This document shows, one piece after another, positions 31,061 through 39,595 of a stretch of DNA of 64,000 bases. Location: NCBI RefSeq assembly GCF_014654895.1, contig NZ_BNBE01000001.1:3184501-3248500 (forward strand). The letters run 5' to 3'. A program made the position numbers and the translations under genes. This DNA comes from Streptomyces filamentosus. GTDB taxonomy: Bacteria > Actinomycetota > Actinomycetes > Streptomycetales > Streptomycetaceae. The notes beneath the pieces are model-generated. The model made no database searches. It saw only the letters and a program-made list of their open reading frames with translations, and was not told the DNA's origin. How positions within the stretch are numbered: position 1 is the first letter of the stretch; each line of letters opens with the position of its first letter.

Positions 31061-31735
31061 ATGCGCATCCTGGTGATCGAGGACGAGGAACGGATGGCCG
31101 CCTCGCTGCGGCGCGGCCTCACCGCCGTCGGCTACACCGTCGACACCGCCCACGACGGCGTCACCGGCCTCCACCTCGCCCGCGAACACCGCTACGCCGC
31201 CGTCCTCCTGGACCTCATGCTGCCCGGCCTCAGCGGCTACCAGGTCTGCGCCCGGCTGCGCGCCGAGGGCAACGACGTGCCGGTGCTGATGCTCACCGCG
31301 AAGAACGGCGAGTACGACGAGGCCGAGGGCCTCGACACCGGCGCCGACGACTACCTCGCGAAACCCTTCTCGTACGTCGTCCTGGAAGCCCGGCTGCGCG
31401 CCCTCGTCCGGCGCGGCGGCGCCCGCGTCCCCACCCTCCTCGAAGCCGGCGACCTGTGGCTCGACCCGGCCCGCCGCACCTGCGGCCGGGGCGCCGAACA
31501 GATCGCCCTCACCCCGAAGGAGTTCGCCGTCCTCCACTGCCTGCTGGGCCGGCTCGACGAGGTGGTGCCCGTCCTGGACGTCCTCGACGAGGTCTGGTCG
31601 GCGGACTTCACCGGCGACCCCAACATCGTGCACGTCTACATCAGCGCCGTGCGGAAGAAGATCGACGCCCCCTTCGGCCGCGAGACCATCGAGACGGTGA
31701 GGGGCGCGGGCTACCGGGTGAGCGGCCGTGCGTGA
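31061..31735 (+). CDS. OmpR-family two-component response regulator
   Basis: 224 residues: receiver domain with phospho-acceptor Asp51 (LLDLMLPGLSG), DE/ED pocket (IEDEERM), Thr/Lys switch (MLTAKN, LAKPFSY), then a winged-helix output domain (IALTPKEFAVLHCLLGRL ... NIVHVYISAVRKKI ... GAGYRVSG). Likely leaderless from the GATACT box. The stop overlaps the kinase start by 8 bp. Expected to bind the repeats at 30986-31028 and thus its own and the DUF2079 promoters. Confidence 0.95.
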   Translation: MRILVIEDEERMAASLRRGLTAVGYTVDTAHDGVTGLHLAREHRYAAVLLDLMLPGLSGYQVCARLRAEGNDVPVLMLTAKNGEYDEAEGLDTGADDYLAKPFSYVVLEARLRALVRRGGARVPTLLEAGDLWLDPARRTCGRGAEQIALTPKEFAVLHCLLGRLDEVVPVLDVLDEVWSADFTGDPNIVHVYISAVRKKIDAPFGRETIETVRGAGYRVSGRA

Positions 31736-33224
31736 CTCCTCCGCCCCTCCCGCGCGCCCGGTCTGGGCGACCCGCCCGGTGTGGGCCTCCGGCCTGGCGG
31801 CGGCCCTGGTCGTCGGCACCGCCGTGGCCTGGCTCCAGTACGCCGACCGCGCCGCCGGACCGCGCTCCCCCTGGCCCGCCGTCCACATCAACCACGACCG
31901 CGTCGGCCCGCAGATCGAGCAGATCACCACCTGGGGCACCTGGGCCGGAGCGCTGTACGTCGCCTCCGTCTGCCTCCTCGCGGGGAAGGGCGGCCCGTGG
32001 TGGGTACGGCTCCGGGGCGCGGCGGTCGCCGGAGCGGTGACGGCCTGCCTGTACGCCACCTACGGCAGCTGGCTCGTCCGCGAGAACGAACAGCACAAGG
32101 TCGACGTCGCGGAGAAGGCGTTCCGCTGGGCCCTCGTCTGCATCGGCCCCTCCGCCGGCCTCCTCACGGCGGCGGCCGTCGCCGCAGCGGTGGGCCGGGG
32201 CGGCGCCCGGATCTCCTTCCGGGGCCGGGTGGCGCTGACGGCCGCAGCGGCGACCGGAGCGCTGTTCCTCGGGGGCGTCCACACCTTCCAGACCCTGAAC
32301 GACGCCTACGACTCGCTCGACAAGGTCTACTGGATCGCCCTCACCACCGGCGTGCCGCTCACGGCCCTGCTCACCGGCTTCCTCGTGCACGTCATGGTCG
32401 CGCGGGCGCTGCGGCCGGTCGACGCGATCCGGCGCGAACTCGCCGACATCACCGGGCAGTCACTGGACCGCCGCGTCCCGGTCCCGCCCACGGAGGACGT
32501 CATCGCGGACCTCGCCCGCACCACGAACGCCACCCTCGACCGGGTCGAGGCCGCGGCCACCCGGCAACGCGAGTTCACCGCCGACGCGGCCCACGAACTC
32601 CGCAGCCCGCTCGCCTCGCTGCGGGCCCAGCTCGAATCGGCGCTGCGACACCCGGAGTCGGTGGACGACTGGCGGCAGGTCGTCACGGAGGCGGCCACCG
32701 ACGTCGTCCGCCTCCAGCACCTCGCCGACGACCTCCTGCTCCTCGCCGGCCACGGCGCGGCCCCGCCCGTCCGCATCCCCGTCGACCTGTCGGCCCTCGC
32801 GGAGGACCTGGTGCGCGAACACCAGCACCTCCCGGAGTCCGCCGCGCTCCGTCTCCGCTGCGAGGCACCCGCCCCCGCGGTCCTCCCCGGCAACCCGGCC
32901 CACCTGGACCGGCTCCTCCGCAACCTCCTGGCGAACGCCTGCCGCCACGCGCGGACGGAGGTCACGGTGACGGTGACCCGCTCCGGCCCCGAGCTGCTCC
33001 TGTCCGTCCACGACGACGGCCCCGGCATCCCGCCCGCCGACCGCACCCGCGTCTTCGACCGCTTCACCCGCCTCGACGAGGCCCGCACCCGCACCACCGG
33101 CGGCGCCGGACTGGGCCTCCCCATCGCCAGGGACCTCACCACCTCCCATGCCGGCACCCTCTCCATCGAGGACGCGGAAACCGGCGGAGCCCTGTTGGTG
33201 GCGCGGTTCCCGGCCGGGGGGTGA
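31728..33224 (+). CDS. Sensor histidine kinase
   Basis: 498 residues from a GTG overlapping the regulator gene. Four hydrophobic helices in the first ~225 residues frame the sensor; a HAMP-like segment follows (ARALRPVDAIRRELADITGQ). H-box DAAHELRSPLASLRAQLE with His289, N-box LLRNLLANACRHAR, G1 VHDDGPGIPPADR, G2 GGAGLGLPIAR. A signal reaching the membrane or periplasm is likely. Downstream lies, tail to tail, a gene for a small secreted peptide. Confidence 0.93.
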   Translation: MRDSSAPPARPVWATRPVWASGLAAALVVGTAVAWLQYADRAAGPRSPWPAVHINHDRVGPQIEQITTWGTWAGALYVASVCLLAGKGGPWWVRLRGAAVAGAVTACLYATYGSWLVRENEQHKVDVAEKAFRWALVCIGPSAGLLTAAAVAAAVGRGGARISFRGRVALTAAAATGALFLGGVHTFQTLNDAYDSLDKVYWIALTTGVPLTALLTGFLVHVMVARALRPVDAIRRELADITGQSLDRRVPVPPTEDVIADLARTTNATLDRVEAAATRQREFTADAAHELRSPLASLRAQLESALRHPESVDDWRQVVTEAATDVVRLQHLADDLLLLAGHGAAPPVRIPVDLSALAEDLVREHQHLPESAALRLRCEAPAPAVLPGNPAHLDRLLRNLLANACRHARTEVTVTVTRSGPELLLSVHDDGPGIPPADRTRVFDRFTRLDEARTRTTGGAGLGLPIARDLTTSHAGTLSIEDAETGGALLVARFPAGG

Positions 33225-33232
33225 GGGCTGGG

Positions 33233-33370
33233 TCAGCGGCCGGCGCGGAGGTCGTCGTGGGAGGTGTCGGCGGTGGTGATGTGCACGTTGGCCGAGGCGG
33301 GTGCGGCCGCGCCGAAGGCGAGGGCGACGGCGACGAACGTCAGGGCGAGCAGGCGTGTCGTGCTGCGCAT
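33233..33370 (-). CDS. Small secreted peptide; predicted mature form begins NVHITT
   Basis: 45 residues, ATG at 33370 with GAGGAG 6 nt upstream. MRSTTRLLAL starts a clear signal peptide with h-region to ~22 and an Ala-x-Ala site (APASA, residues 23-27). Cleavage after Ala27 would release an 18-residue peptide, NVHITTADTSHDDLRAGR. Its first residues match the NVHVTT repeat of the neighbouring 74-aa protein. The gene is convergent with the histidine kinase (8 bp between stops). No known family; a signalling or matrix role is speculation. Confidence 0.72.
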   Translation of the reverse strand: MRSTTRLLALTFVAVALAFGAAAPASANVHITTADTSHDDLRAGR

Positions 33371-33677
33371 GGGGACTCCTCATGAAGCGGGGACAATCGG
33401 GCAGATCGATCCTCGCGGCGGCGTTCGGACGACCGCGAAGCGGAACGGACTACTTCGTCAGGTGGTCCGCGCACGCGGGAAGGGGCCGGGCAGATGCCCG
33501 GCCCCTTCCTGTCGGTGGCCCGATCGCGTTGCGCACGGTCCTCGCCGGACGGATCCCCCCTGGTTCCGCCGGGCGTTCCCCCGGACCGTGTGCTCCCCCG
33601 TCGACCGGGCCCCGGTGGATGGCACCGGCGGCTCCCCCGATGGCGCCGCCGGTGCCGTCAACCCCGTGGGGAGTGGT
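33371..33677. other. 307-bp intergenic region with one strong hairpin
   Basis: No supportable gene on either strand. It contains the upstream region of the secreted-peptide gene and a perfect 14-bp hairpin at 33478-33509; the remainder (33510-33677) shows nothing I can identify. Confidence 0.6.
33478..33509 (-). terminator. Intrinsic terminator after the NVHVT-repeat gene
   Basis: GGAAGGGGCCGGGC (33478-33491) and its exact complement (33496-33509) around a 4-nt loop AGAT. Placed between the two small minus-strand genes, it would end the repeat-protein transcript and isolate the secreted-peptide gene. Confidence 0.75.
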
Positions 33678-33902
33678 CTACTTGGCCGGCTCGGTGGTGA
33701 CGTGCACGTTGCCGAGCGGCTCGGCCGTCACGGCGTCGCCGAGGGGCTCGGTGGTGACGTGCACGTTCTTCACACCGATCTTCTCGGCTATCGCCTCGGC
33801 CGCGTCCTCACCGCCGGTGACGTGCACGTTCTTCACCTCGATGTCGACGGGCTCGCCCGTGACGTGGACGTTGGCCGGCTTGATGATCTGGTCGTCGCTC
33901 AT
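33678..33902 (-). CDS. 74-aa protein with four NVHVT repeats
   Basis: ATG at 33902 with AGGAG 7 nt upstream. The acidic protein carries NVHVT at residues 11-15, 25-29, 46-50 and 65-69, in contexts NVHVTGEP, NVHVTGGE, NVHVTTEP and NVHVTTEP; lysine precedes copies 2 and 3 (VKNVHVT), and a Lys ends the chain. No signal peptide or membrane helix. The repeats are codon-level similar (the plus strand shows GTGACGTGCACGTT three times). Unrecognised family. The shared motif with the secreted peptide 300 bp away suggests a common partner or precursor-like role; unproven. Confidence 0.75.
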   Translation of the reverse strand: MSDDQIIKPANVHVTGEPVDIEVKNVHVTGGEDAAEAIAEKIGVKNVHVTTEPLGDAVTAEPLGNVHVTTEPAK

Positions 33903-33979: not shown

Positions 33980-34116
33980 TTGCTCAGGGGCCGCTCACCC
34001 TATTGCCTGCTGGTGACAGCCTCTTCGCTGACCCGCCTGCCCCCCGACGCGACGGATCGATGAAGGAAGCATCGCGCGGGGCGATAAACGAACGATGAAC
34101 GCCGTGGTCCCGCTGG

Positions 34117-37100
34117 TCAGGCCGCGGCGGCGGGGTGCAGGAGGGCGCGGACCTCGGCCGCCTCGGGGGAGCCGAGGCGCGTGTAGATGTCGAGGGCCTC
34201 CGCCCAGCAGACCTGGGCGCGGTCCCGCTGGCCCAGGCCGCTGAGCGCGCGGCCCAGGACGGTGAGCACGTTGCCGCGCCGCCACTCCCCGCCGATGTCG
34301 CGCAGGACCGTCAGCGCCATCTCGGCGTTGGAAGCCGCCTGGGCGTTCTTGCGCCCGGCGAGGTCCACCTCGGCCAGCCGGAAGAGGGCCATGCCCTGCC
34401 ACAGGCGCTGCCGGCTGCTGGTGAAGACGGCCAGCGCGTCCCGGAGTCTGCTCGACGCCTCGGAGAGCTGCCCGCTGCGGGTGAGGGCGACTCCCAGGGC
34501 GTACCACCCGTTCGCCCCCTTGAGGGCGTGGCCGAGCGCGTCGTACATCTCCGCTCCCTGGAGCGCCAGTCGTACGGCGCTCTCGGTGCGCCCCGTCAGC
34601 AGATGGATCCGGGAGAGGTTGCAGAGGGCGCTCGCCTCGCCCGCGGAGTCCTTCGCGGACCGGAACTCCGTGATGGCCTGCTGGAGATGGGTCTCGCCCT
34701 CGGAGTAGTGGTTGCGGTAGATGGCGGTCACCCCGAGCAGGTTGGCCGACCAGCACAGGGACATCGGGTCCGCGTTGGCGGTGGCGAGGCGGCGGGCCTC
34801 ACCGGCCTCGGTGTCGGCCTGGTCGAAGCGGCCGGACAGCTGGTGGACGTACGCCAGCGTGATCGCCGCGCGGCCCTCCGCCCGTACGTCCCCCGTCTTC
34901 GACGCCGCGCCCCGCAGGACCGTCGCCACCGCCTCGTACTCCTTGGAGTTGGCGCCTGACTCGGCGAGGTCCAGGGAGGCCCAGAGGAGGTCGACGGCGC
35001 GGCGGAGGGTGGCGGGGGCGGCGGCGGACTGGCGGACGCAGGCGAGGAGGCAGTGGGACTCGGCGTAGAGCCAGTCCTGGGCCTGGTGGCGGTCGGTGAA
35101 GGTCAGGCCCTGGTGGGTGGTGGGTTCCAGGTGGTCGACGAGGCGGTCGCCGGGGCGTTCGACGGCGTAGACCCCGGCGGCCGTCGAGAGGTAGAAGTCG
35201 AGGAGGCGGGAGAGGGCCGCCTCCTTCTCCGACGGGGGGTGCTCGTCGCGGTCTGCGCAGGCGCGGGCGTAGAGCCGGACCAGGTCGTGGTAGCGGTAGC
35301 GGCCGGGGGCGGCCGACTCCAGGAGGGACGTGTCGACCAGGGCCTCCAGGAGGTCCTCGGTGTCCCAGAGGGGGAGGTCCAGGACGGCGGCCGCCGCCGC
35401 GAGGGAGATGTCGGGGCCGTCGGCGAGGCCGAGGAGGCGGAAGGCGCGGGCCTGGTGGGGTTCGAGCTGGCCGTAGCCGAGCTCGAAGGTCGCCTTGACG
35501 GCGAGGTCGCCGGCCTGGAGCTCGTCGAGGCGGCGGCGCTCGTCGGCGAGCTTCGCGGCGAGGACCGAGACCGTCCAGGTGCGGCGGGCCGCGAGCCGCG
35601 ACGCGGCGATGCGGATCGCGAGGGGGAGGAAGCCGCAGGCGGCGACGACGTCGAGGGCCGCCTCGCGCTCCGCCTGGACCCGCTCCTCGCCGACGATCCG
35701 GGTGAAGAGCTGGAGCGCCTCCTCGGGGGACATCACGTCGAGGTCGACGAGGTGCGCGCCCGCGAGGTCGACCATGCGGATGCGGCTGGTGACGAGGGCC
35801 GCGCAGCCGGCCGTGCCGGGCAGCAGGGGGCGGATCTGGGCGGCGTCCCGGGCGTTGTCGAGGAGGACCAGGACGCGGCGGCCGTCGAGCGTGGAGCGGT
35901 AGAGGGCGGCCCGGTCCTCCAGGGAGTCGGGAATGGCCGAATCCGGTGTGCCGAGGGCGCGGAGGAAGGAGCCGAGGACGGTCTCGGGCGCGGCGGCGCG
36001 GGCGCCCGCGCCCTGGAGGTCGACGTACAGCTGCCCGTCCGGGAAGTGCGGGCGTGCCTCGTGGGCGACGTGCACGGCGAGCGTGGTCTTGCCGACGCCG
36101 CCGATGCCGGCGAGCGCCGAGACGGCCATGACCGAGCCCTCGGCGGTCGCGAGCTGCGCGCCCAGCTCCCGTACGAAGGCGGCCCGGCCCGTGAAGTCGG
36201 GGACCGTTGCGGGTAGTTGAGCCGGCCGGGAGACGGGGGACGCGGCCGGGGCCTGTTCCTCGACGGGACGGGCGAGTTCGGCGTCGCCCTGGAGGATGCG
36301 CTGCTGGAGCCGGGAGAGTTCGGGGGTGGGGTCGACGCCGAGCTCGTCGGCGAGGAGCCGGCGGGTGTCGGCGTACACGGCGAGGGCCTCGGCCTGCCGT
36401 CCGCCCCGGTAGAGCGCGAGCATCAGCAGTTCGCGCAGCCGCTCGCGCAGCGGGTGCGCGGCGGTGAGCGCGGTCAGTTCGGAGACGGCCTCGGCGTGCG
36501 CGCCGGTCTCCAGGTCGACGTCGAGGCGGGTCTCCAGGAGGGTGAGCCGCCATTCCTCCAGGCGGGTCCGCTGGGTCTCGGCGTAGGGGCCGGGGACGGA
36601 GGCCAGGGCCTCGCCGTCCCACAGGTCGAGGGCCTCGGCGAGCCGGGCCCGGGCGGCGGACCGGTCGCCGCCGGCCCGCAGCTTCTCGGCCTCGGCGGCG
36701 AGTTGCTGCGCGCGGGTGAGGTCGAGCGCGCTGGTCTTCAGGGAGTACCCGCCGGACTCGCTGGTCAGCACCTCGGCGCCGAGGACCTTGCGGAGCCGGG
36801 AGGCGTACGTGCGGAGCGCGGCGAGCGCCTGGGAGGGGGGCTCCTCGCCCCAGAGCGCGTCGATGAGTTCGGAGGCGGTGGCGGTGCGGCCGCGGCGGAG
36901 GAGCAGGGCGGCGAGGAGGGCGCGCTGCTGCGGCGACCCGGTGGCCAGCGCCTCTCCGTCCCGCCAGGCCCGCACGGGCCCGAGCACGCCGAACCGCAGT
37001 CCGGTGCCGGGCTCGGCCGCGGTCCTCGCACCGGCTCCCGCGGCGGTGTCCGTGACGGTTCCCGCGGCGGTGTCCGTGACGGCTCCCGTGACGGCTCCCG

Positions 37101-37305
37101 TGCCGGCCCCGGCGGCGGTTCCCGTGCCGGTCCCGGTGTCCGTACCCGCGTGCGCTTCCGTCCCGGCCCCGTGGATGGCCGGTTCTTTTCGGTCCGTCCC
37201 CGGCCGGTCCGTGCCCTCCCGGTGCCGGGGCACGCCGAAGTCCGTTCCGGCCCCGCTCCGGCCGGAGCCCTGCGCCGGGACGCGTGGCCCGCTCTCCTGC
37301 CCCAT
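34117..37305 (-). CDS. AfsR/SARP-family regulator (BTAD, NB-ARC, TPR)
   Basis: 1062 residues from the ATG at 37305 (GGGGAG just upstream). After ~95 low-complexity residues with Gly/Thr/Ala repeats (GTDTGTGTGTAAG), an OmpR-like DNA-binding domain (~100-190: RFGVLGPVRAWRDGEALATG) and BTAD domain (~195-340), an NB-ARC ATPase with P-loop GIGGVGKTTLA (~400) and LVLLDNARDAAQIRPLLPG, then TPR repeats to the end. Such proteins act as ATP-dependent activators of secondary metabolism and may be phosphorylated by Ser/Thr kinases. The frame is open further upstream (to 37590) but that part covers DnaA-box-like repeats and is unlikely coding. No biosynthetic cluster adjoins it other than the distant lasso operon. 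Confidence 0.9.
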   Translation of the reverse strand: MGQESGPRVPAQGSGRSGAGTDFGVPRHREGTDRPGTDRKEPAIHGAGTEAHAGTDTGTGTGTAAGAGTGAVTGAVTDTAAGTVTDTAAGAGARTAAEPGTGLRFGVLGPVRAWRDGEALATGSPQQRALLAALLLRRGRTATASELIDALWGEEPPSQALAALRTYASRLRKVLGAEVLTSESGGYSLKTSALDLTRAQQLAAEAEKLRAGGDRSAARARLAEALDLWDGEALASVPGPYAETQRTRLEEWRLTLLETRLDVDLETGAHAEAVSELTALTAAHPLRERLRELLMLALYRGGRQAEALAVYADTRRLLADELGVDPTPELSRLQQRILQGDAELARPVEEQAPAASPVSRPAQLPATVPDFTGRAAFVRELGAQLATAEGSVMAVSALAGIGGVGKTTLAVHVAHEARPHFPDGQLYVDLQGAGARAAAPETVLGSFLRALGTPDSAIPDSLEDRAALYRSTLDGRRVLVLLDNARDAAQIRPLLPGTAGCAALVTSRIRMVDLAGAHLVDLDVMSPEEALQLFTRIVGEERVQAEREAALDVVAACGFLPLAIRIAASRLAARRTWTVSVLAAKLADERRRLDELQAGDLAVKATFELGYGQLEPHQARAFRLLGLADGPDISLAAAAAVLDLPLWDTEDLLEALVDTSLLESAAPGRYRYHDLVRLYARACADRDEHPPSEKEAALSRLLDFYLSTAAGVYAVERPGDRLVDHLEPTTHQGLTFTDRHQAQDWLYAESHCLLACVRQSAAAPATLRRAVDLLWASLDLAESGANSKEYEAVATVLRGAASKTGDVRAEGRAAITLAYVHQLSGRFDQADTEAGEARRLATANADPMSLCWSANLLGVTAIYRNHYSEGETHLQQAITEFRSAKDSAGEASALCNLSRIHLLTGRTESAVRLALQGAEMYDALGHALKGANGWYALGVALTRSGQLSEASSRLRDALAVFTSSRQRLWQGMALFRLAEVDLAGRKNAQAASNAEMALTVLRDIGGEWRRGNVLTVLGRALSGLGQRDRAQVCWAEALDIYTRLGSPEAAEVRALLHPAAAA

Positions 37306-37388
37306 TGGCTCCCCCTGCCCGTACCGCTGGTATCGCCCTGGACAGTCTGCCTTGTCCGGAGGGAGCGCGTCAGCATCGGGTCGGCCGT

Positions 37389-37536
37389 TGTGGACAACTG
37401 CGGACGAGGGCTGTGGACGGCCACGGACGGCTGTGGACGACGCCGGGGACGGCTGTGCGCGACGCCGCGCATGGCTGTGGACGGCGCCAAGGAGCGCGGG
37501 AGAGGGGGGGAGGGGGGAGGGGACGGCTGTGGACAA
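37389..37536 (+). repeat. Cluster of five DnaA-box-like TGTGGAC sequences
   Basis: TGTGGACAA at 37389-37397 (within the palindrome TTGTGGACAA) and 37528-37536, and TGTGGACGG/TGTGGACGA at 37412, 37432 and 37476. TTGTCCACA is the Streptomyces DnaA box on the other strand; two copies match it exactly in the core. Spacing is 20-52 bp. Confidence 0.5.
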
Positions 37537-37661
37537 GTGCCGGCGACGCCCCCGCGAAGCCCCGCGCCCGCCCCGTACTCGCCCTCGCACCCACCCCGAA
37601 CCCGCCTCGCGCCCACCCCACCCCGCGCCCGCCCCGTCCGCACCCCCCGCCGCCGCAGTAG

Positions 37662-38978: not shown

Positions 38979-39296
38979 CTAGATGGCCAGGACGTGCCGC
39001 AGCGCTGTGGCCACCTGCGTCATCGTCTGTGCGGAGAGGGCGCCGAGGTCGGCTTTGATGTCGTCCCGGTACATCGGGCCGAGGTCGTCGCAGAGAATCC
39101 GGCCGACCACTGGGTCATTCGGCCCCAGCTTGACGATGCTCGCGATGTCGGGCTTGTCGCTCGTGGTGATGCGGACCACCAGGCACTCGTCCAGCTTCTG
39201 GTTGCGCGCATTGTTGGAGACGACGAGCCAGGGCTTGAGGCCGAACCCCAGATCGGCGCGGTACAGCCGTCCCCGCACGGGAACGATCTCCGTCAC
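38979..39296 (-). CDS. MazF/PemK-type toxin (mRNA interferase)
   Basis: 105 residues: RGRLYRADLGFGLKPWLVVSNNARN (beta1-beta2 of the MazF fold, with the PWLVVS form of the RPxxVVS motif), VRITTSDKPD, and the C-terminal GRILCDDLGPMYRDDIKADL with the CDDL segment in place of CDQI/AEQI. MazF toxins cut mRNA. The ATG overlaps the antitoxin gene (ATGA). Length normal. Confidence 0.85.
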   Translation of the reverse strand: MTEIVPVRGRLYRADLGFGLKPWLVVSNNARNQKLDECLVVRITTSDKPDIASIVKLGPNDPVVGRILCDDLGPMYRDDIKADLGALSAQTMTQVATALRHVLAI

Positions 39297-39595
39297 TCGC
39301 CCGCTCCGCCGCTTCGCCTGCGAGCGCGACGTGCGGCGGCGTAGGCGCGGTCCTCGTCGTCCTGAGCCGCGGCCAGTGCCGCGTAGCCGTTCTCCAGGGC
39401 CTTCTCCTGGACGGCGACCCGGCCGGCGTTGAGCAGTGCGCGGAGGATCTCGGCATCCGAGGTGTCGTCGCTCACGTTTATCCCGGTGACCTGACGCAGG
39501 GCCGTGTTCTCCGGGCTGTCATGGCGGCGTACGCGTTCCATCGCCTCTTCGACGAGTGCGTCGAGGGGGACGCTCTTTCGAGTCATGGTGGCCAT
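39293..39595 (-). CDS. Antitoxin partner of the MazF-type toxin
   Basis: 100 residues, acidic to neutral, helical throughout (VPLDALVEEAMERVRRHDSP, AEILRALLNAGRVAVQEKAL, DDEDRAYAAARRARRRSGGAGE). It is the first gene of a two-gene overlap with the toxin. The N-terminal MTRKSVPLDALVEEAM could be a short RHH-like DNA-binding arm. A second start at 39586 is possible. The TA pair is inserted between catabolic genes of the CTGACG regulon. Confidence 0.75.
   Translation of the reverse strand: MATMTRKSVPLDALVEEAMERVRRHDSPENTALRQVTGINVSDDTSDAEILRALLNAGRVAVQEKALENGYAALAAAQDDEDRAYAAARRARRRSGGAGE

Follow-up and report, generated by a model that had tools for sequence, protein, structure and literature searches.

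Five-residue words shared by AfsS and a predicted secreted peptide co-vary with TPR residues of AfsR in Streptomyces

AfsR and AfsS form a global switch of antibiotic production in Streptomyces. According to the excerpts cited here, AfsR has a tentative TPR sensor domain, for which that text names no ligand, and its NOD and TPR domains inhibit the activator part of the protein, an inhibition that ATP relieves (PMC10936776). AfsS of S. coelicolor was published as a protein of 63 amino acids with three repeats (PMC2267785). The same kind of excerpt calls its mode of action as yet unknown (PMC10972967). A review attributes the action of AfsS to DNA binding upstream of the regulator genes of act and red (PMC6988585), and a commentary states that constitutive afsS alone drives actinorhodin overproduction (PMC8290100). 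Peptide sensing of the RRNPP kind is described from Bacillota; Actinomycetota typically use small-molecule signals (PMC10075063, in the part cited).

The locus that we compare with these systems lies in a window of 64,000 nucleotides from Streptomyces filamentosus, and all positions below refer to this window (Table 1). The original prediction had singled out two adjacent small open reading frames with a common motif, both on the same strand next to a histidine kinase and an AfsR-type regulator, in an arrangement that it did not recognise. Both reading frames are present as described. The larger one (74 amino acids) contains NVHVT at residues 11-15, 25-29, 46-50 and 65-69, and the last two copies read NVHVTTEP. 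The DNA pattern AAYGTSCACGTSAC occurs five times in the 8.85-Mb genome, four times within this one gene, and its reversed control does not occur at all; hence the repeats are not a matter of chance. The smaller reading frame (45 amino acids) encodes a prepeptide that begins with charged residues, continues with a hydrophobic segment and has an APASA site. Cleavage after APASA, a site assigned by our own AxA-type rule, would leave the 18 residues NVHITTADTSHDDLRAGR, which begin with NVHITT. The pair of genes is found again in relatives.

The neighbouring regulator is of the AfsR type, as predicted: it passes the NCBIfam model NF053617 (SARPRegAfsRStmc) with 1730 bits at a cut-off of 1430. The claim of a common strand is correct for the two small genes and afsR, which are all on the minus strand, but not for the kinase and response regulator, which are convergent on the plus strand (31061-33224). 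The repeats of the 74-residue protein and its lack of a signal peptide stand as well, but the unrecognised arrangement turns out to involve a known protein. Its gene follows afsR directly on the same strand, behind a predicted AfsR box made of two direct repeats (CGTTCATCG/CGTTTATCG; consensus from the cited part of PMC10972967). Furthermore, in one genome the AfsR C-terminus shows 100% identity to the S. coelicolor PDB chain, and the protein encoded in this place has 63 amino acids and three copies of DNHMP, in agreement with the published size and repeat number. From position, box and this agreement, we identify the repeat protein as AfsS.

The spacer between afsS and the peptide gene contains a hairpin on the 3' side of afsS, which recurs in two groups of aligned relatives (8 and 12 species) and separates the two genes in both groups. 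A promoter and terminator scan of the locus found nothing, and no terminator at the hairpin. For both small proteins the best Pfam and NCBIfam matches were far below the cut-offs, and Rfam matches at E up to 0.5 were all far below the families' own thresholds. Further upstream of afsR, the window holds two small overlapping reading frames on the minus strand (38979-39296 and 39293-39595), which we take to resemble a toxin of the MazF/PemK type and its antitoxin.

Table 1. Features of the afsR-afsS-peptide locus, in window positions.
Feature	Position	Strand	Basis
afsR, SARP-NOD-TPR regulator, 1157-aa ORF	34117..37590	-	NF053617; BTAD, NB-ARC, TPR domains
AfsR residues 788-1157, modelled helical superhelix of ~40-residue repeats	34120..35229	-	AlphaFold2, mean pLDDT 92.7
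Word-tracking AfsR codons 951, 957, 958, 981	34738-34740, 34720-34722, 34717-34719, 34648-34650	-	co-variation with AfsS word
Word-tracking AfsR codons 1024, 1067, 1104	34519-34521, 34390-34392, 34279-34281	-	co-variation with AfsS word
Predicted AfsR box 5' of afsS, CGTTCATCG + CGTTTATCG, starts 11 nt apart	34082..34101	-	sequence match
afsS, 74 aa, without signal peptide, four NVHVT repeats	33678..33902	-	ORF and repeat
AfsS repeat 1, NVHVT	33858..33872	-	sequence
AfsS repeat 2, NVHVT	33816..33830	-	sequence
AfsS repeat 3, NVHVTTEP	33753..33767	-	sequence
AfsS repeat 4, NVHVTTEP	33696..33710	-	sequence
Hairpin directly 3' of afsS, possible terminator, no U tract	33621..33656	-	spacer alignments, 8 + 12 species
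Second spacer hairpin, 15-base arms fully complementary	33478..33509	-	sequence; conserved in the group of 8
Predicted secreted-peptide gene, 45-aa prepeptide	33233..33370	-	ORF; profile A1 (contains this peptide), E 3.6e-13
Predicted mature 18-residue peptide NVHITTADTSHDDLRAGR	33236..33289	-	AxA-type site by rule

A plain protein search found relatives of AfsS in 26 of 199 genomes and relatives of the peptide in three. Hence we anchored the loci on AfsR, which was found in 197 of the 199. A repeat reading frame follows afsR in 154 of 159 genomes by rule. Among the five exceptions, G008 ends with its contig, AfsS of G101 and G349 was then read by eye, G142 has a match 11 kb away, and the fifth is G012. 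AfsS of G238 and G090, where the rule had picked the wrong reading frame, was assigned by hand. At least one exact CGTTYATCG lies 5' of afsS in 52 of 60 loci.

The repeated word differs among species (for example, NVHVT, DQHAT, DNHMP, GEGHTP or DSNRP) and is uniform inside each protein. It has the form [DNE]-x-H-x-[T/S/P/G] in most genomes; words without histidine also exist (DSNRP, DSTRP, DEQMP, DTYAT and NWQPT). AfsS repeats without histidine were read in Streptomyces sp. SPB074 and SID11385 and in Wenjunlia vitaminophila (L172, L173 and L174; DTYAT, DSYAT and NWQPT, respectively). Relatives that have both small genes keep the same kind of word while the letters NVHVT vary, rather than losing the motif, the outcome that would have spoken against the original prediction.

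AfsR consists of Trans_reg_C, BTAD, NB-ARC and TPR domains. The NF053617 match begins at residue 190 of the annotated reading frame; the listed start is probably too far upstream, and the true start further downstream. We set the start of the TPR part at residue 902, compared to a published boundary of about 942. Foldseek matches the modelled C-terminal part best to TPR domains (TM about 0.45-0.6), many of them in complexes with peptides or partners; the peptide-bound ones include LGN, KLC1 and Rap-CSF (4gyo). In TPR domains, alternate (A-type) helices line the inner groove. The AlphaFold2 model places residues 951, 957, 958, 1024, 1067 and 1104 on alternate helices (model residues 155-171, 235-251, 275-291 and 315-331), residue 981 in a loop, and residues 1015, 1057, 1087 and 1091 on other helices. 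Second AfsR-like genes, 66-70% identical to the C-terminal half of the query, were seen at G149:C2, G019:C2, G075:C2, G006:C8 and G128:C2:4514111.

Residues of the TPR part change with the AfsS word. In a discovery set of 71 genomes, we compared AfsR columns with word positions after removing the overall AfsR distance. For word positions 1, 4 and 5 the leading columns belong to the TPR region at the C-terminus; several of those for position 2 precede it closely. Tyr958 is present in all 52 species with a non-Pro word and in none of the 19 with Pro, and Arg1104 in 52 of 52 and 2 of 19, respectively. Lys1024 marks 20 of 29 species with an Asn-initial word (the other nine have Arg instead) and none of the 42 others; Asp981 is found in 26 of the 29 and 6 of the 42. 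An acidic residue at 951 occurs in 23 of the 27 species whose word has N, S, G, R or K in second place and in 0 of 44 others.

We held out 81 other genomes, i.e. 60 AfsR stretches obtained after the rules had been fixed and 21 loci whose columns were previously unexamined (G018 was left out). Tyr958, scored by the stated rule (Tyr or not), accompanies 62 of 62 non-Pro words and none of the 18 Pro words. The automatic column rule leaves it unranked because residues unseen in discovery count against a column. Arg1104 is present with 59 of 62 non-Pro words versus 0 of 19, and the three misses have G, G and A at position 5. Lys1024 separates the Asn-initial words completely (15 of 15 versus 0 of 66), and Asp981 is found with all 15 of them but also with 13 of the 66 others. 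Acidic 951 follows its rule in 44 of 46 genomes versus 1 of 34, and words with Asn at position 2 go with Asp951 in 28 of 28. AfsR of S. coelicolor (H958, M1104, R1024, N981) was read before its AfsS and predicts a word of the form D...P; the word is DNHMP. Here four of the five columns fit, and the rule for 951 is broken (Asn951 with Asn at position 2).

Uncorrected for relatedness, the raw association is spread over the part of AfsR examined and does not single out the TPR domain. The partial correlation (best of four word positions, 116 genomes combined, loci with short AfsR pieces excluded) exceeds 0.2 in 24 of 78 variable columns on A helices, 13 of 85 on B helices, 6 of 45 in loops and 2 of 100 outside the TPR part. 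These co-variation data show, with relatedness partly controlled, that AfsR TPR residues track the AfsS word, and we regard the coupling to the modelled TPR groove as the strongest new result.

The 45-residue reading frame is, by its signal region and its position, a member of a predicted family of Sec-signal peptides that is tied to the afsS locus. The peptide gene is the third after afsR and afsS, and this order recurs: a reading frame downstream of afsS on the same strand, with a Sec-type signal by rule. Its signal region is conserved (consensus MTRTKK...PALA) and precedes between one and about six copies of the same kind of word. Of 392 genomes of the genus, at least 63 have the family at this locus, a lower bound since the search was guided by profiles, and it is absent from many species. 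The reading frame looks coding because its GC3 is high (0.96; mean 0.90 over 60 peptide genes, this one included) and because 12 of 13 species pairs give a dN/dS below 1 (the remaining pair gives 1.28).

A first profile, A1, matched 226 of the 392 genomes at E up to 0.01. Many of the weak matches are probably generic signal peptides; only strong ones were used, and their positions were checked. Of the best 30 loci, 29, all except L204, follow afsR on its own strand. A better profile matched 48 of 199 genomes at E 1e-5, in some cases away from afsR, and gave no match in the other 151 at this threshold. In a sample of 197 genomes of the order, only the window's own genus, one of six, gave matches. 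In the S. coelicolor-type genome no peptide was found within 1.49 kb.

Several signal-bearing proteins with such words were observed elsewhere. One of 116 amino acids in G097 (L255, reading frame at 1501 of the reverse complement), not beside afsR, has N-terminal copies of DQHVS, ENHAT and DAHVT and then an unrelated C-terminal part. Two proteins in G051 (L273), with DDHST five times and with DDHGG/DDHSG, lie about 0.9 kb apart in a stretch without a recognisable afsR tail. Others, away from afsR in G081 (L217) and G371 (L210 and L213), contain ENHSS, DRNQT or NNHGT; G371 has five A1 matches.

We assembled 60 pairs of AfsS and peptide, 59 from the 392 genomes of the genus and one from S. roseolus (L168). 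Signal-like reading frames that were rich in Arg or unlike the signal consensus were excluded, and four later pairs (G036, G064, G089 and G137) stand outside the pair statistics. Because their AfsR pieces are short, G018 and G006 were excluded from the trees and from the position-wise comparison of 58 pairs. Examples of AfsS and peptide words, respectively, with the best-matching copy taken for each pair, are NVHVT/NVHIT, DQHAT/DQHVT, NTHVT/NTHIT, DGHAT/DGHTT, ERHQT/ERHQS, NNHGT/NNHSS, GEGHIP/GEGHLP, DNHAP/DNHAP and DNGMP/DNPMP. In G036, AfsS has DSNRP nine times, and the peptide has DNNRP four times and GQHTP once.

The double-centred alignment score of mature peptides against their own AfsS is 20.9, compared to a maximum of 8.2 in 100,000 permutations. 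Peptides fit their own AfsS better than the mean of the AfsS of the five nearest AfsR relatives in 44 of 58 cases and worse in 14 (Wilcoxon p 6e-7). Against the single nearest relative, 36 fit better, 18 worse and 4 equally (p 0.0067). For single positions we used a neutral first-motif rule, from which 16 hand-picked peptide words differed. By this rule 28 of 58 pairs agree at word position 2 (20,000 permutations: mean 8.0, maximum 20) and 30 differ (for example, in G070, G040, G140 and G124), and Pro or non-Pro at position 5 agrees in 56 of 58. The peptide thus tends, by these scores, to carry its own species' variant of the AfsS word.

To explain these couplings, we propose that the AfsS repeats are ligands of the AfsR TPR domain, mimicked by the secreted peptide, which would diffuse and be imported again; taken as a whole, we hold this explanation to be an even call. 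What we infer beyond the recurrent gene order, the word coupling of AfsS and peptide and the coupling of AfsS to the AfsR TPR domain with its hold-out is physical binding, import and the direction of the effect. The AfsS repeats would occupy the concave groove of the C-terminal sensor domain, so the product of AfsR's target gene would report back to AfsR. We consider this step likely. The peptide would leave the cell through Sec and be trimmed outside, often into several copies; an oligopeptide importer would then return it to the cytoplasm, where it would bind in the same groove. In this way AfsR activity could be set by neighbouring cells or by the medium. That the peptide acts on AfsR after import is plausible, and we lean a little against it. 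We take the ligand to relieve the inhibition of AfsR because NOD and TPR domains inhibit the activator domain (PMC10936776, in the part cited). By analogy to STAND proteins in general we guess, with a slight preference, that it is an agonist rather than an antagonist. Against this proposal, AfsS may have a target other than AfsR, since it is described as binding upstream of act and red (PMC6988585) and as sufficient for actinorhodin overproduction when constitutively expressed alone (PMC8290100), both as given in the excerpts. The pairs that differ at position 2, the genomes with no peptide match and the broken 951 rule of S. coelicolor count against it as well, and of the nine AfsS proteins without histidine among the 58 pairs, five have peptides that retain it.

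Alternatively, AfsS binds the AfsR TPR domain and the peptide acts only extracellularly, on the surface, in the matrix or on another receptor. Its likeness to AfsS would then stem from afsS repeats that were fused to a signal sequence, with occasional duplication or gene conversion. The peptide repeats do resemble AfsS repeats (TPQDNHAT-like units), and related secreted proteins exist away from afsR. The occurrence of the peptide is patchy, and there is no AfsR box in front of it (no exact box between afsS and the peptide gene in any of the 60 loci). Moreover, where the words differ, AfsR fits AfsS and not the peptide: among the 12 pairs with different classes at position 2, residue 951 agrees with AfsS in 11. 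By this comparison AfsR is tied to AfsS more tightly than the peptide is. However, the signal regions align across 54 of the 60 peptides, which points to one old family rather than to repeated rebirth, and differences of a single letter (NVHIT and NVHVT, ERHQS and ERHQT) look like tracking and not like recent conversion. We consider a purely extracellular role rather unlikely.

The couplings could also mostly reflect shared ancestry, with related genomes sharing variants of AfsR, AfsS and peptide that have no functional link. There are few supported independent switches: the trees contain one to six independent pairs per trait with branch support; most of these agree with the expected direction or show no difference, and none of the sign tests shown reaches 0.05. 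A count of coinciding branches gives no uniform ranking and places several columns from outside the TPR part near the top. Within tight AfsR clusters the preference for the own pair is not significant (p 0.10-0.16 at cuts of 0.15-0.25; 0.009 at 0.30), and AfsS hardly varies inside them. At word position 2 the control does not separate the TPR part from the rest, since a balanced accuracy of 0.9 in the hold-out is reached by 1 of 255 TPR columns and by 1 of 142 columns before residue 902; residue 951 ranks first, and the other column is 873, 78 residues (about two repeats) before it. At positions 5 and 1, however, non-TPR columns of the same ancestry do worse (0 of 41 and 0 of 142, versus 4 and 5 TPR columns of 255). 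Furthermore, Tyr958 and the Pro/non-Pro state each change six times in the tree of the arm region, with agreement in 131 of 131 rows, and five times in a fuller tree, with agreement in 121 of 121 (loci with short AfsR pieces excluded from both). The preference of peptides for their own AfsS also persists against the nearest relatives. Ancestry as the main cause is thus improbable.

An N-terminal X-X-His is a copper/nickel site. The words could accordingly be metal-binding motifs, with His-rich repeats in AfsS and such a site in the mature peptide. Histidine is the most constant residue of the word, and [DNE]xH is the N-terminus of 47 of the 60 mature peptides, a count biased by our cleavage rule, which favoured sites in front of [DNEG]xH. 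However, AfsS words without histidine (DNGMP or DNPMP) go together with peptides without histidine (DNPMP or DNSMP) in at least four species that have a peptide. The other AfsS words without histidine given above likewise speak against metal binding, which also leaves unexplained why AfsR TPR residues change with the word. We consider it very unlikely.

Least credible is that the peptide signals to the neighbouring histidine kinase, as one variant of the original prediction had it. Two-component genes adjoin the peptide gene here, and in G076, G098 and G004 they are located within 6 kb behind afsR. However, among 92 loci of 6 kb or more a close homologue of the kinase is found there in only four; three of these (this one included) have a peptide, and G004 has the kinase with no peptide detected. 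The kinase is not part of the afsR-afsS-peptide unit, and we regard the two-component system as a bystander at most loci. Of the options originally listed, shared binding to one receptor is still favoured, but the likely receptor is the AfsR TPR domain, whose residues track the word, rather than the kinase.

Returning to AfsS and peptide as ligands of AfsR, its furthest extension makes AfsR a peptide receptor. Its TPR groove would read a species-specific five-residue word on AfsS and on the exported peptide, a private and rapidly diversifying code for the onset of antibiotic production with an intracellular and an extracellular form of the ligand. We put this forward tentatively and would sooner expect it to be wrong than right. 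That both peptide and AfsS change in step with the presumed sensor pocket of AfsR suggests an undescribed peptide signal that controls antibiotic production. The coupling at the level of residues makes both the action of AfsS and the ligand of the AfsR TPR domain directly testable. If the proposal is true, synthetic five-residue words could start or stop antibiotic production in a species-specific way, and peptide signalling like that known from Bacillota would extend to actinomycetes.

The excerpts of the AfsS and AfsR literature cited here mention no secreted partner. Titles and abstract openings among the matches listed from the open-licence literature likewise name neither a secreted peptide beside afsS nor a contact between AfsS and the AfsR TPR domain. 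The third gene of the afsR-afsS locus, and with it the family of predicted secreted peptides, is described in none of these. Compared to AfsR-AfsS of S. coelicolor, the locus has the same gene order, the same AfsR box and the same kind of small repeat protein (there 63 amino acids with three DNHMP). It differs by the predicted secreted peptide with the motif downstream, and by our proposal that AfsS is the ligand of the AfsR TPR domain.

Three kinds of peptide system come close. Phage Rap systems have tandem Phr propeptides with several pheromone-like copies per precursor, as here, but the part of the source cited names no separate cytoplasmic protein with the same motif (PMC11343458). The second half of AfsR matches the NB-ARC/TPR proteins of the FxSxx-COOH and HaaA RiPP systems (HaaT, E 3.7e-96; FxSxx_TPR, E 4.8e-24), names that derive from small-peptide systems; however, its scores are far below the cut-offs (323 of 1125 and 85 of 300, respectively).

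RRNPP systems (Rap, Rgg, NprR, PlcR, PrgX) encode a secreted propeptide near a regulator with a C-terminal TPR domain. This locus resembles them in the C-terminal TPR domain of AfsR, whose modelled part matches the fold of Rap-CSF; its putative propeptide, with a Sec-type signal by rule, is encoded third after afsR and afsS and is absent from many species. RRNPP receptors begin with an XRE-type HTH or a Rap domain. AfsR, in contrast, is a SARP-NB-ARC-TPR (STAND) regulator with Trans_reg_C, BTAD and NB-ARC in its N-terminal half, and its locus adds an intracellular protein with several repeats of the same word. Hence, because its N-terminal part is of another family and because the signal has an intracellular twin, the AfsR system would resemble RRNPP sensing without being a member of it.
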